From Bacteroidales bacterium (GTDB taxonomy: Bacteria > Bacteroidota > Bacteroidia > Bacteroidales > P3), in the NCBI GenBank assembly GCA_017446745.1, contig JAFSQF010000002.1, positions 1-39,619 of the forward strand: a stretch of 39,619 nucleotides of DNA, written 5' to 3'. This document shows, in pieces, positions 17,801 through 39,492 of the stretch (position 1 is the first letter of the stretch; each line of letters opens with the position of its first letter). The notes under the pieces are model-generated. The model saw only the letters and a program-made list of their open reading frames with translations, did not search any database and was not told where the DNA came from. Made by a program: the position numbers and the translations under genes.

Positions 17801-17895
17801 TAATATGTCGCCCCTACAGGGCTCATATAGGATAGGGTAATTCGAGTCCCGTGGGCTCGCGCCCACGGCTAATATATGCCGCCCCTACGGGGCTC
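17801..17895 (+). repeat. Composite CCCCTACGGGG / CCGTGGG..CCCACGG repeat
   Basis: CGCCCCTACAGGGCTC, then CCGTGGG-CTCGCG-CCCACGG with GCTAATATATG, then GCCGCCCCTACGGGGCTC. Nearly the same 95-bp composite lies at 28651-28745, and the array at 30307-30661 is built from the same two hairpins. The rest of the 17709-18025 gap holds repeat copy 1 and the terminator. Confidence 0.9.
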
Positions 17896-28650: not shown

Positions 28651-28745
28651 TTAATATGCCGCCCCTACGGGGCTCAGATTAATAGAGTATTTCGATTCCC
28701 GTGGGCTCGCGCCCACGGCTAATATATGCCGCCCCTACGGGGCTC
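28651..28745 (+). repeat. Composite CCCCTACGGGG / CCGTGGG..CCCACGG repeat
   Basis: The same 95-bp arrangement as at 17801-17895: GCCGCCCCTACGGGGCTC, then CCGTGGG-CTCGCG-CCCACGG, then GCCGCCCCTACGGGGCTC. Both are followed by TATCGTTACA and a T-run. Confidence 0.9.
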
Positions 28746-30306: not shown

Positions 30307-30661
30307 TAATATGCCGCCCCTACGGGGCTCGGAGGAGGAGGGGGGGCGCATTGTTCCGTGGGTTTGCGCCCACGGCTATTAAGTTTTGTTCTCCGCTTCG
30401 CTATCGAAAGCTCCACAGGAGCTTTCTTCACCCCTACGGGGCTCGGAGGAGGAGGAGGTTCGCGTTGTTCCGTGGGTTTGCACCCACGGCTATTAAGTGC
30501 CGCCCCTACGGGGCTCGGAGGAGGAGAGGGTTCGCGTTGTTCCGTGGGCTTGCGCCCACGGCTATTAAGTGCCGCCCCTACGGGGCTCGGAGGAGGAGGG
30601 GGGGGCGTATCGTTCCGTGGGGTTGCGCCCACGGCTATTAAGTGCCGCCCCTACGGGGCTA
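30307..30661 (+). repeat. Palindromic repeat array inside the sigma/anti-sigma/barrel cluster
   Basis: Five CCCCTACGGGGCT hairpins alternate with four CCGTGGG-n6-CCCACGG hairpins, joined by GGAGGAGG-rich and GCTATTAAGTGCCG links; the later units repeat every ~75-80 bp. One unit is interrupted by a GAAAGCTCCACAGGAGCTTTC hairpin (~30405-30428). The array starts at the stop codon of the anti-sigma-like gene. Arg-rich open frames across it are by-products of the repeats. Confidence 0.92.
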
Positions 30662-35536: not shown

Positions 35537-35835
35537 TTTAGCAATCATCAAAAAATACGTTGATACAATCAGACAGGTGCAAAAAAAAGCGAAAACGACT
35601 GTGTTTATGCGACGTGGTACGCGGGCGTCCCCGCCTGCGATATTTTTTTCGCGGAATGGTACGCGGGCGTCCCCCACATGCGATATTTTTTTCGCAGAAT
35701 GGTACGCGGGCGTCCCCGCCTGCGATAGTTTTTTGCAGAATGGTACGCGGGCGTCCCCGCCTGCGATATTTTTTTTCGCAGATGGGTACGCGGGCGTCCC
35801 CGCCTGCGATATTTTTTTTCGCAGGATGCGAAAAA
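35537..35835 (+). repeat. TTAGCAAT repeat copy 4 plus array of five GTACGCGGGCGTCCCCGCC units
   Basis: Copy 4 of the GTTGATACAATC repeat (35537-35610) runs straight into five units of GGTACGCGGGCGTCCCCGCC TGCGATATTTTTT, about 47 bp each, to ~35830. Each unit has a GCGGG..CCCGC hairpin, a TGCGA..TCGCA hairpin and a T-run. The second unit has CCCCCACATGCG in place of CCCCGCCTGCG. No gene is visible in 34787-35988. Confidence 0.92.
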
Positions 35836-35988: not shown

Positions 35989-35996
35989 TACCTTTG
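35989..35996 (+). promoter_or_regulatory. -7 promoter box for the LRR leader RNA
   Basis: TACCTTTG followed by CACC fits TAnnTTTG. It would start an RNA near 36003, about 340 nt before the ATG at 36341. A TTTG lies at 35974-35977. Confidence 0.7.
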
Positions 35997-36002
35997 CACC
36001 GT

Positions 36003-36292
36003 CGTTCTGACCGGAGCCGCGGCGGGATTTCTGTCTTGCCGGAGGTCGAGGGAGGACGGCAGGACATATAGAAAAGACGTTGTAACGGCGTTTTATCTGC
36101 GGCTCTGTTGAACTTCGCAACTTCAAACCTACCACCGCAATAGCGCAATGTTCCTCGTCCATAGGTTTGGTATATAGTGGCTATTACTATATCCATACGC
36201 GTGGGCTTCGGCATTGCTTATTCTGTGGTAAGGGGCAATGCGAAGGCCTAACAGAGCGGGATAAGCAATACAGTTGTTCCCGCGTTTTTTTA
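36003..36292 (+). promoter_or_regulatory. Structured leader RNA with terminator and alternative antiterminator
   Basis: Perfect or near-perfect stems in order: GAGCCGC 36014-36020 with 36099-36105, enclosing CTTGCCG 36035-36041 with 36057-36063; CAAACCTA 36124-36131 with 36162-36169; ATATAGT 36172-36178 with 36186-36192; a 13-bp stem 36204-36217 with 36235-36248 (one bulge each side); and a terminator GCGGGA 36256-36261 with 36278-36283, followed by T7. The strand 36213-36226 can instead pair for 14 bp with 36256-36269, which would remove both the preceding stem and the terminator's 5' arm. A 9-codon ORF (36148-36177, MFLVHRFGI) lies in the middle. It could be an attenuator, a riboswitch-like element or a separate small RNA; I do not recognise a known class. 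Confidence 0.65.
36256..36292 (+). terminator. Terminator/attenuator hairpin before the LRR gene
   Basis: GCGGGA (36256-36261) pairs with TCCCGC (36278-36283), then G and seven T. It lies 50 nt before the start codon, with no further promoter box in between. Confidence 0.75.
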
Positions 36293-36340
36293 TATTGTTT
36301 TTGAACAAGAAGAATTATTAACCCTTTAAAAAAAAACAAT

Positions 36341-38932
36341 ATGAAGAAATTAAAATTTACTTTTCTCGCCATCTTTCTGATGGCAATGGCAATGCCGCGA
36401 AGCGCCTTTGCCTACGATTTCTCGGCCGTCGCCCCGACAGGGCAGACGCTGTATTACCAATACGTAGAATCAGCGAACGATGTAGAACTTTGTTATCCAG
36501 GATATAATGATTATCACGCTTGGAGTGGGTATACAACACCAACTGGAGCCCTGACGATACCTTTAACGGTCACATATAATGGTACAACTTATAATGTTAC
36601 TTCAATCGGAGACTATGCTTTCTATAGCTGCAGCGGCCTGACCTCCATTACCATCCCCAACAGCGTCACTTCAATAGGCAGAGAAGCCTTCCGTAACTGC
36701 ACGGGTCTGACTACGGTAAATTTCAATGCCATAAACTGCACTTTTATGGGTCTAGAAGATGTACCTTATTTTGACAATAATAATGTTTTCCATGGATGCA
36801 CTAATATTACAACTATAAATATAGGTGATAGTGTGACAAATATTCCTAGGGGAGCCTTTTCTGGCTGCACGGGTCTGACTTCCGTTACCATTCCTAACAG
36901 TGTCACTTCAATAGGCTACTATGCCTTCTACGGCTGCAGCGGTCTGACTACGGTAAATTATAATGCCACAAATTGCACATCTGGCGGCTTTAGTGGACTT
37001 AGTAGTATTACCACCTTGAACATAGGGGACAATGTAACCGTTATTCCTGCAAAAGCCTTCCGTGGCTGCAGCGGCCTGACTTCCGTCACTATCCCCAACA
37101 GTGTCACGTCGATAGAACTAGAAGCATTCTATGGCTGCAGCGGCCTAACTTCAGTTACTATTCCTAACAGTGTCACGTCGATAGACTCATCTGTCTTCTA
37201 TGGCTGCAGCAGCCTGACTTCGGTCACTCTTCCTAACAGCGTCACGTCGATAGGCTCATATGCCTTCTCTTACTGCTACGGCCTGACTTCGGTCACTATC
37301 CCCAACAGTGTCACGTCGATAGGCGGCAAAGCCTTCCTTGAATGCTACGGCCTGACTTCCGTCACTATCCCCAACAGCGTCACGTCAATAGGCTCATCAG
37401 CTTTCTCTGGATGCTACGGCCTGACATCCGTAACGATTCCTAACAGCGTCACTTCAATAGGCTACTCGGCATTCTCTTACTGCGAAAGTCTTGCTTCCGT
37501 CACCATTCCTAACAGCGTCACATCGATTGGCGTATCTATGTTCCGCTATTGCACTGGCCTAACCACAGTTGTAGTTGGTAGTTCTGTGGATACAATCGGA
37601 TATTATGCCTTTGAAGACTGCACGTCGCTGGACACTGTAATAATGCTTTCCGAAACGGCACCGGTTATATTCTCAAACACATTCCAGAATGTCCGTACCA
37701 ATGTGCCTATCTTTGTGCCTTGTGGCTCGTCGGACGCATACAATGAGGCACCTTACTGGAATGTTTTCACTCGCATTCAGGAGGCCGACAGCTGCAACAA
37801 CGTGCTGACGCTTACCGTCAACAACAGCAATCTCGGCAGCGTTCACGGCGCCGGTATGTACAGACCGGGAAGTCTGGTCGAAATAATGGCCGTTCCCGCA
37901 GTCGGAAGCCAGTTCATCCGCTGGAACGATGCCAATACCAACAACCCGCGCACCATCACAATCAACAGTGACACCACATTCACGGCGATATTCGACACCG
38001 TGGCAGCAGCGACAGTATTCCACAACATTACAGTCACAACATCCAATATGTCGATGGGCAGCGCAATGGGCAGCGGCAGCTATGCCCACGGCACCGTGGC
38101 AACCATCGTGGCTGTGCCTGAAGTGGGCTATGCCTTCAGCAACTGGCACGACGGCAACACCACCAACCCACGCAGCATAACAGTGACAGATAATAATTTC
38201 TATATTGCAAGTTTCACTGCTTCCGAACCACCAGTCCAGCACGACACAACATACGTTGATAACTATATCTACGACACCACATACGTAGACAACTATATCT
38301 ACGACACCACATACGTAGACAACTATATTTACGACACGACATACGTCGACAACTATATCCACGACACTACATACATCGACAACTATATTCATGACACCAC
38401 ATACGTCGACAACTATATTCACGATACCACGTATGTTGACAACTATATCTACGACACTACATACATCGACAACTATATTCATGACACTACATACATCGAC
38501 AACTATATTCACGATACCACGTATGTTGACAACTATATCTACGACACCACATACGTGGATAACTATATCTACGACACCACGTATGTTGACAACTGGATCT
38601 ACGACACGACATACGTGACCGACACGCTGTGGCTGACGGAATACGACACCATCTGGCTGCACGACACCATCTGGCTGCACGACACGATCTATATCAGTCA
38701 AGAGGGTATTGCCGATGTTGTTGGCAGCAACGTTAAGGTGTACAGCAACCATGGGCAGATAGTGGTAGAAGGGGTCGAGGGCAACGCGGTGACGCTCTAC
38801 GACGCCGTGGGTCGCCAGCTGGCTGTGCGCCGCGACGTGTACGGAGCGATACGTTTCGACGTCCCAGCCTCGGGAGCTTACTTCATCCAAGTGGGCAACC
38901 AAGCGGCCAAGCGTATTGTCGCAATCAAATGA
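36341..38932 (+). CDS. BspA-type leucine-rich-repeat surface protein with T9SS type A sorting domain
   Basis: An 863-residue exported protein. Signal peptide 1-24 (ending SAFA). About eleven 23-residue LRR_5/BspA repeats (LTSVTIPNSVTSIGxxAFxxC) occupy ~80-440. Two InlB-like beta-grasp repeats follow (~485-625), each with GSxxGxGxYxxG and FxxWxDGN motifs. Then twelve exact-length 10-residue units (Y/H)DTTY(V/I)DNYI plus a degenerate one (634-763) form a stalk, followed by YDTIWLHDTIWLHDTIY. The end (~795-863, VKVYSNHGQIVVEGVEG ... SGAYFIQVGNQAAKRIVAIK) is a type A T9SS sorting domain. It is likely a surface adhesin or host-binding protein. A long structured leader precedes it and matching repeat blocks flank it. 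It is less GC-rich than its neighbours. Confidence 0.92.
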   Translation: MKKLKFTFLAIFLMAMAMPRSAFAYDFSAVAPTGQTLYYQYVESANDVELCYPGYNDYHAWSGYTTPTGALTIPLTVTYNGTTYNVTSIGDYAFYSCSGLTSITIPNSVTSIGREAFRNCTGLTTVNFNAINCTFMGLEDVPYFDNNNVFHGCTNITTINIGDSVTNIPRGAFSGCTGLTSVTIPNSVTSIGYYAFYGCSGLTTVNYNATNCTSGGFSGLSSITTLNIGDNVTVIPAKAFRGCSGLTSVTIPNSVTSIELEAFYGCSGLTSVTIPNSVTSIDSSVFYGCSSLTSVTLPNSVTSIGSYAFSYCYGLTSVTIPNSVTSIGGKAFLECYGLTSVTIPNSVTSIGSSAFSGCYGLTSVTIPNSVTSIGYSAFSYCESLASVTIPNSVTSIGVSMFRYCTGLTTVVVGSSVDTIGYYAFEDCTSLDTVIMLSETAPVIFSNTFQNVRTNVPIFVPCGSSDAYNEAPYWNVFTRIQEADSCNNVLTLTVNNSNLGSVHGAGMYRPGSLVEIMAVPAVGSQFIRWNDANTNNPRTITINSDTTFTAIFDTVAAATVFHNITVTTSNMSMGSAMGSGSYAHGTVATIVAVPEVGYAFSNWHDGNTTNPRSITVTDNNFYIASFTASEPPVQHDTTYVDNYIYDTTYVDNYIYDTTYVDNYIYDTTYVDNYIHDTTYIDNYIHDTTYVDNYIHDTTYVDNYIYDTTYIDNYIHDTTYIDNYIHDTTYVDNYIYDTTYVDNYIYDTTYVDNWIYDTTYVTDTLWLTEYDTIWLHDTIWLHDTIYISQEGIADVVGSNVKVYSNHGQIVVEGVEGNAVTLYDAVGRQLAVRRDVYGAIRFDVPASGAYFIQVGNQAAKRIVAIK
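38240..38629 (+). repeat. 30-bp tandem repeat within the LRR gene, 12 units plus one degenerate
   Basis: The unit is (T/C)ACGACACCACATACGTNGA plus CAACTATATC, in exact 30-bp steps. Each encodes ten residues, so gain or loss of units keeps the frame. Confidence 0.95.
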
Positions 38933-39391: not shown

Positions 39392-39492
39392 CGAGCCCCG
39401 GAGGGGCGGCATATAATAGCCGTGGGCGTCAGCCCACGGAACGACGCAACCATCCCCCTCCCTATCCGAGCCCCGGAGGGGCGGTATATTAC
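39392..39492 (-). repeat. GAGCCCC-GGA-GGGGC / CCGTGGG..CCCACGG composite
   Basis: GAGCCCCGGAGGGGCGGCAT, then GCCGTGGGCGTCAGCCCACG, then a second GAGCCCCGGAGGGGCGGTAT. It is the reverse orientation of the composites at 17801 and 28651, with loop GGA in place of GTA or TAC. Confidence 0.85.

Follow-up and report, generated by a model that had tools for sequence, protein, structure and literature searches.

The window analysed here, a 39,619-nt stretch of DNA from a Bacteroidales bacterium, contains a 338-nt leader (positions 36003-36340, + strand) directly in front of a gene for a BspA-type LRR protein. This raises the question of what the leader does, and for which genes. A sequence-only reading had described it as an attenuator-like leader with three mutually exclusive helices ending in a terminator, and as possibly a new regulatory RNA, controlling a T9SS LRR surface protein. 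We evaluated these claims by folding, homology searches, and covariation analyses. An attenuator-like leader is upheld as the best reading, with strong conservation and covariation, and we regard it as probable that the leader acts in cis as an attenuator.

The leader in the window

The leader has a predicted free energy of -119.5 kcal/mol and a z value of -4.92 in comparison with shuffled sequences, none of which (0 of 100) folded as well. A -7 promoter element of the Bacteroidota type, TACCTTTG, was read at 35989-35996 (+), which suggests a transcription start at about 36000-36003. The structured RNA, one copy of a family, occupies 36003-36292 (+). Its first part is a variable 5' domain (36003-36060, +), in which the copies differ in sequence, and for most copies the blast match starts at about 36044-36066. 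It is followed by a predicted 5' hairpin (36070-36098, +). The downstream gene (36341-38932, +, from the ORF list) encodes an 863-aa BspA-type protein with a signal-like N-terminus and a match to LRR_5 (E 1.5e-99). Its T9SS assignment rests on a sub-threshold match of the C-terminus to DUF6383 (22.6 bits, cut-off 23.7).

Two repeats in the neighbourhood were noted in passing. Immediately 5' of the leader promoter, positions 35601-35818 contain five direct repeats with a spacing of 41-43 nt, four of which appear as terminator-like hairpins with a T-run in a hairpin scan. Within the LRR protein gene, at about 38300-38620, tandem near-identical 10-residue repeats (DTTYVDNYIY / DTTYIDNYIH) precede the C-terminal domain.

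An RNA family of the Bacteroidota

The leader is a copy of a conserved structured RNA family of Bacteroidota that is absent from Rfam 15. Within the genus, a blast search with positions 36000-36300 hit 39 of 59 genomes, with up to seven matches per genome, whereby some copies give two; the genome counts for the family include the window's own genome. Sixty-two copies were located, including the window and L031, and 58 of them formed an alignment of the long form (A1), from which L118 (incomplete) and, by eye, L031, L102, and L111 were left out. The covariance model built from these 58 copies, R1, matched 107 of 190 genomes of the same family (8 of 12 genera, up to eight matches per genome) and 52 of 295 genomes of the same order (37 of 184 genera). 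All 80 loci found with an exact pattern carry an R1 match.

Across the phylum, R1 matched 3 of 345 genomes. Two of these, together with short matches at the order level, led to a short form with a length of about 185-215 nt. Twenty short copies, chosen by length from the phylum- and order-wide R1 matches, were aligned (A2), and the resulting model, R2, matched 53 of 345 genomes of the phylum in 28 of 155 genera. R2 also matches the window (55.2 bits, E 1.5e-6 in 43 sources), showing that the long form and the short form are homologous. R2 is partly self-complementary and gave five weak opposite-strand or second matches with E values of 0.001-0.006.

Among the exact-pattern matches listed, most carriers are rumen and gut MAGs of Bacteroidales. 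Palleniella intestinalis is a carrier with eight R1 matches, Ca. Sodaliphilus limicaballi is also among the matches listed, and Parabacteroides gordonii is represented among them by an exact-pattern match only. The highest count is 10 matches in one genome. At least six copies are present in the window's own genome, i.e. the one in the window, one on contig C67, and short-form copies on contigs C66, C96, C78, and C2 (E 1.1e-11 to 2.2e-6).

At gathering score, Rfam 15 gave no match to the leader in the window or to the copies in 35 scanned loci (15 + 20). The best sub-threshold match in the leader was whalefall-1, with 18.1 bits versus 37. Otherwise, these scans gave a single tRNA in L354 and, outside the leader, Acido-Lenti-1 in the window. 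Flavo-1 RNA (RF01705) and Bacteroidales-1 RNA (RF01693), listed in PMC2864571, are structured RNAs of the same phylum, but no match at gathering score was obtained for either one in the window or the 35 loci. According to PMC9723704, Flavobacterium psychrophilum has the RNA Rfp18 and 64 structured 5' regions; these RNAs of a flavobacterium are comparable to the leader by description. No description of the leader RNA was found in the literature covered, which includes parts of PMC7366714, PMC8040213, PMC11109978, and PMC10994844; supplements and preprints were outside this scope, and it may have been described elsewhere. Within these limits, the novelty of the putative regulatory RNA is supported.

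Covariation in a nested arm

The paired regions of the leader form one nested arm, H1-P6-H2-P7-U/M. In the 58 long-form copies, 88.3% of the cells are paired versus 80.2% after shuffling, and 357 cells are double-changed versus 120. In the 20 short-form copies, 79.1% of the cells are paired versus 63.8%. A third alignment (A5) represents 72 of 81 sources across the phylum, the remaining nine having no match at E 1e-4. Because this alignment is fitted to R2 and favours the structure, its values of 84.7% versus 59.4% paired cells and of 779 versus 262 double-changed cells are to be read in that light. Compensatory changes were found in 41 of the 42 modelled pairs of A5. Conservation and covariation in homologous leaders had been set beforehand as a check of the earlier interpretation; its outcome is strongly positive, as homologous leaders exist and arm pairs are double-changed.

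The central helix, P6, pairs CTTCGCA at 36113-36119 with TGCGAAG at 36239-36245 (+). It is paired in 99.0% of the cells in A1 and 100% in A5, where all six modelled pairs are double-changed; one pair, for example, is GC in 34 copies and CG in 32. P6 is flanked in the arm by two hypervariable helices, H1 (36103-36109 with AACAGAG at 36250-36256, +) and H2 (36130-36135 with 36225-36230, +). The 97 copies read for H1 contain 59 different H1 sequences, and 74 different H2 sequences were counted in 89 copies. When the partners were shuffled, the mean longest helix fell from 5.13 to 2.88 bp for H1 (maximum of 500 shuffles, 3.18) and from 7.21 to 4.12 bp for H2 (maximum 4.53); two of 99 copies lie outside the pattern, and H2 was readable in 89. 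In A5, 96.4% of the H1 cells are paired. P7 (5' strand GCAATGTT, 36145-36152, with 36210-36217, +) is paired in 93.9% of the cells in A1, with double changes in three of eight pairs. The tip of the nested series is formed by strand U (36157-36162, +) and its partner in strand M (36201-36206), and the six pairs of U/M form in all 58 copies of A1. In the short form (A2), U/M is 91.4% paired, with double changes in five of seven pairs. The 5' hairpin outside the arm is paired in 88.5% of the cells of A1, without any double-changed pair, and in 68.9% of the cells of A5, with double changes.

A role of the H1 and H2 variation in preventing cross-pairing between copies in one genome is unsupported. 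The cross-pairing values within and between genomes are 2.74 versus 2.80 for H1 and 4.39 versus 4.20 for H2.

One of the three helices proposed from the sequence, an upstream stem of 36204-36217 with 36235-36248, can be drawn, although with 12 pairs and a 2-nt mismatch instead of 13 pairs. As a functional helix it was rejected. Its 98.4% paired cells equal the shuffled value, the 58 copies contain no double change, and its ensemble probability is 0. Its strands belong to P6 and P7, which are better supported. Of the three helices proposed as mutually exclusive, this one lacks support; the helices with support are P6, P7, U/M, and the M/D pairing described below.

The same region contains the proposed 9-codon ORF (MFLVHRFGI), which is present with a stop codon at 36148-36177. 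It could in principle sense translation, as in a leader-peptide attenuator. T-box and leader-peptide attenuators are leader RNAs with an exchange of terminator and antiterminator. The ORF is, however, not conserved: some copies (e.g. L110 and L117) lack its ATG, which is located in helix P7. The family is thus disfavoured as a leader-peptide attenuator, a mechanism that we consider hardly credible, and it differs from both T-box and leader-peptide systems in having neither an Rfam match nor a conserved leader peptide.

The compensatory changes also bear on the idea that the element is a mobile promoter and leader cassette, spreading by insertion without itself containing a regulatory switch. 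Such a cassette could account for the unrelated genes that follow the element and for the number of matches, which varies among genomes. However, the changes in nearly all modelled pairs indicate selection on the RNA, and blastn searches of plasmid and phage collections gave no match to the leader, so that mobile carriage was rejected. The long-form pattern had no match in viral contigs, and the short-form pattern had eight, one of which (L339) has a model match. Overall, a mere cassette is very improbable.

Terminator and alternative strand pairings

The proposed terminator is fully present in the sequence, with the arms GCGGGA (36256-36261) and TCCCGC (36278-36283) and seven T residues (36285-36291). 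A consensus terminator scan with loops of 3-8 nt missed it; its loop has 16-18 nt. For comparisons between copies, three elements were defined, i.e. the local 5' arm L (GCGGG, 36256-36260, +), of which base 36256 is common with H1, the 3' arm D (CCCGCGT, 36279-36285, +), which pairs with L or M, and the U-run (36285-36291, +).

The 240 listed copies correspond to 228 unique ones, of which 221 had enough flanking sequence for the promoter and tail tests. The local L/D stem is present in 146 of 173 long-form copies (7 with a reversed-D control) and in 5 of 48 short-form copies (control 3). In the long form it occurs in the compensated types GCGGG/CCCGC, GTGGG/CCCAC, GTGGA/TCCAC, and GTGAG/CTCAC. 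A 10-nt tail with at least seven T residues follows in 161 of 173 long-form and 35 of 48 short-form copies.

Strand D has a second potential partner, strand M (GCGTGGGC, in RNA letters GCGUGGG, 36199-36206, +), which can pair alternatively with U or D. All seven M/D bases pair in 166 of 173 long-form and 28 of 48 short-form copies, compared to 5 and 2 with reversed D. In the genus of the window (A1), M/D is 100% paired yet nearly invariant and is uninformative there. In the short form (A2), it is paired in 95.7% of the cells, four of seven pairs are double-changed, and none of 500 shuffles reached the score. Across the 72 copies of A5, 90.6% of the cells are paired; four pairs are double-changed versus 2.2 by chance, a value reached by 47 of 500 shuffles, and 10 cells are double-changed versus 2.7 by chance, reached by none of 500. 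In the short form, M therefore has two covarying partners, U and D, which is the mark of a strand-exchange switch.

A 14-bp helix competing with the terminator had also been proposed. ATTGCTTATTCTGT at 36213-36226 does pair with 36256-36269 over 14 bp, with three G-U pairs and not four. Its 10-bp core, P5, joins the 5' strand TTGCTTATTC (36214-36223, +) and the 3' strand GGATAAGCAA (36259-36268, +), in RNA letters UUGCUUAUUC and GGAUAAGCAA. P5 would form a pseudoknot with H1, P6, and H2, and it engages strands of P7 together with two terminator bases in the 5' arm, or five if all 14 bp are counted. In the 58 copies, 99.7% of the P5 cells are paired, compared to 39-59% for slid controls and 99.2% for column-shuffled letters. 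Three cells in two pairs are double-changed, which is not above one of the slid controls. The high pairing in the shuffled alignments and the few double changes show that P5 is conserved, while its covariation is weak.

For the window up to position 36290, the predicted default fold contains H1 (probability 0.86), P6 (0.99), H2 (0.89), P7 (0.94), U/M (1.0), and L/D (0.64). Stepwise folding predicted that the arm forms early (U/M 0.99 and P7 0.94 by 36226), followed by the local terminator at about 0.64. The upstream stem (P4), P5, and M/D have probabilities near 0 in this pseudoknot-free model. The free fold, with the arm and the local terminator, has a free energy of -114.8, and forcing P5 or M/D raised it to -99.8, again in the pseudoknot-free model; H1 and L/D share base 36256, and the comparison uses the free fold and excludes rows with H1 and L/D both forced. 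Because the arm and the terminator coexist and P5 or M/D is costlier, the pseudoknot-free model does not give an energetic explanation of a switch. The default fold implies that the gene should be off until another pairing is favoured.

Position before genes

Downstream sequence of 400 nt or more was available for 216 of the 228 unique copies; L194, with a cut 5' end, was left out of this set, and the row for L031 has its 3' end about 36 nt too far. An ORF on the same strand starts within 250 nt in 207 and within 150 nt in 194 copies, with a median gap of 64 nt. The motif TAnnTTTG was found within 110 nt upstream of 149 of 173 long-form and 34 of 48 short-form copies, compared to 11 and 6 on the opposite strand of the same stretch. 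On the motif evidence, the downstream gene appears to lack its own promoter.

These data bear on the alternative that the RNA is an independent trans-acting small RNA with an incidental neighbouring gene. Its own promoter motif and terminator, the several copies per genome (up to eight in the family sample, 10 in one genome), and an invariant core that could act as a common seed are compatible with such a role. However, among the 190 copies with sufficient flanks for this test, 151 are followed within 150 nt by the start of a same-strand ORF of 100 aa or more, but only 30 have one in the divergent direction; at random places the value was 799 of 2893. In addition, TAnnTTTG is rare between the U-run and the gene (5 of 173 long-form and 2 of 48 short-form copies). 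A small RNA of this kind is therefore rather improbable.

The main rival to attenuation is a leader that controls translation or mRNA stability instead of transcription. After read-through, D would pair with the loop of a hairpin between the U-run and the start codon and shape the start region. Many copies have a hairpin at this place with a loop complementary to D (e.g. CGGGAATC versus GATTCCCG), suggesting that the RNA may act once the gene has been read through; GATACCC/GGGTATC is an example of the matched pairs visible by eye. The mean Watson-Crick run between D and its own downstream stretch is 5.88 versus 5.08 after swapping in the long form (maximum of 30 swaps, 5.21) and 5.56 versus 5.01 in the short form (maximum 5.23). 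The short form also has a weaker U-run and a local terminator stem hardly above the control. When G-U pairs are allowed, however, the excess shrinks to 7.21 versus a swap maximum of 6.91 in the long form and 7.17 versus 7.21 in the short form, and the window copy has a mere 6-bp match that contains G-U pairs. Moreover, the long form has a conserved U-rich tail and a conserved local GC stem with compensated changes. We consider post-transcriptional control unlikely, though more plausible than a small RNA or a cassette.

Genes downstream of the leader

The genes that follow the copies encode BspA/LRR proteins, lipoproteins, TonB receptors, response regulators, DNA methyltransferases, and many others. 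From 186 non-redundant proteins downstream of long-form copies, 123 were picked by hand (A3). LRR_5 occurs in 21 of these, a share that is understated because close BspA paralogues were left out. In total, 51 Pfam families were found, and among the best 25 of the 51, those other than LRR have at most four members each. Control of a T9SS LRR surface protein is therefore too narrow a description of the family, which precedes many unrelated genes. A crude test indicated a signal-like N-terminus in 113 of 187 downstream proteins. Three of the 37 proteins downstream of short-form copies (A4) are TonB receptors, another three are response regulators, and two are HTH_3 proteins. In the genome of the window itself, the four short-form copies (L374, L371, L372, and L373 on C66, C96, C78, and C2) lie in front of restriction or DNA-methyltransferase domains, i.e. 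ResIII, N6_N4_Mtase, MmeI_Mtase, and MethyltransfD12. A broad link to phage defence was rejected, because PADLOC families have at most two members each among the 123 long-form proteins (best 25 of 38 families). The wide gene set suggests that the leader responds to a general physiological signal.

Two further conserved features lie near the genes. A separate sequence, GTTGCGCCCGACACGnATnAGGG, is found just before the start codon, between leader and gene (e.g. L068, L071, L078, and L324). It occurs in 41 of the 59 genus genomes, including genomes that have no leader match (e.g. G037 and G040), but not in the window's genome, and a reversed control pattern gave no match. In addition, peptides of 50-60 aa after L090, L091, L097, L110, L113, L116, and L168 have the common pattern EYxxPxxE.....VERGF or a similar one.

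A possible attenuation mechanism

Attenuation remains the preferred reading, and it could operate as follows. Transcription would start at the TAnnTTTG promoter just 5' of the leader, and the RNA would fold into the long irregular arm H1-P6-H2-P7-U/M. The strand that follows the arm, GGAUAAGCAA, may invade the upper arm to form P5 and hence a pseudoknot. The 3' end would consist of strand D and then the U-run. D could pair with the local strand L in the long form, or with M in the arm in both forms, M otherwise being paired with U. This exchange of strands would decide between termination at the U-run and read-through into the gene. L/D and M/D alike place a helix before the long-form U-run, making the ON fold ambiguous. 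In the short form, the lack of the local stem, the weaker U-run, and the M/D pairing in 28 of 48 copies suggest that some copies may have an output other than intrinsic termination.

The leader resembles transcription-attenuating riboswitches in its conserved covarying 5' fold joined to a terminator and in its candidate competing helices, but its genes do not belong to one pathway and it matches no Rfam 15 model. In pseudoknot riboswitches of the preQ1 and SAM-II types, with a size of tens of nt, an arm of the expression platform becomes part of the aptamer. The leader likewise has a possible pseudoknot, P5, with its 3' strand at the 5' arm of the terminator; in contrast, it is about 185-290 nt long and has two hypervariable helices. 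As a tentative extension, for which we see somewhat less than an even chance, the family might be a phylum-wide class of large pseudoknotted sensing leaders with a ligand of their own (a metabolite, an ion, or a protein), in which one strand alternates between a partner upstream and another downstream. Through this exchange, they would switch genes for surface-exposed and phage-facing products, namely BspA proteins, TonB receptors, DNA methyltransferases, and restriction functions.

Bacteroidota dominate gut and rumen. The presence of several copies per genome and the compensatory changes, which extend beyond rumen Bacteroidales to further orders and classes of the phylum, point to a common signal for surface and accessory genes. 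This idea is directly testable in cultured carriers, and the models R1 and R2 can annotate 5' regions throughout the phylum.

Acido-Lenti-1 matches in the window

Apart from the leader, the Rfam 15 scan yielded six matches to Acido-Lenti-1 (RF01687) above the gathering score, at 17849-17894, 28699-28744, 30470-30515, 30542-30587, and 30615-30660 on the + strand and at 39394-39439 on the - strand. PMC2864571 lists this motif for Acidobacteria and Lentisphaerae; the host here is a member of the Bacteroidales. In the window, the matches are perhaps a repeat element.
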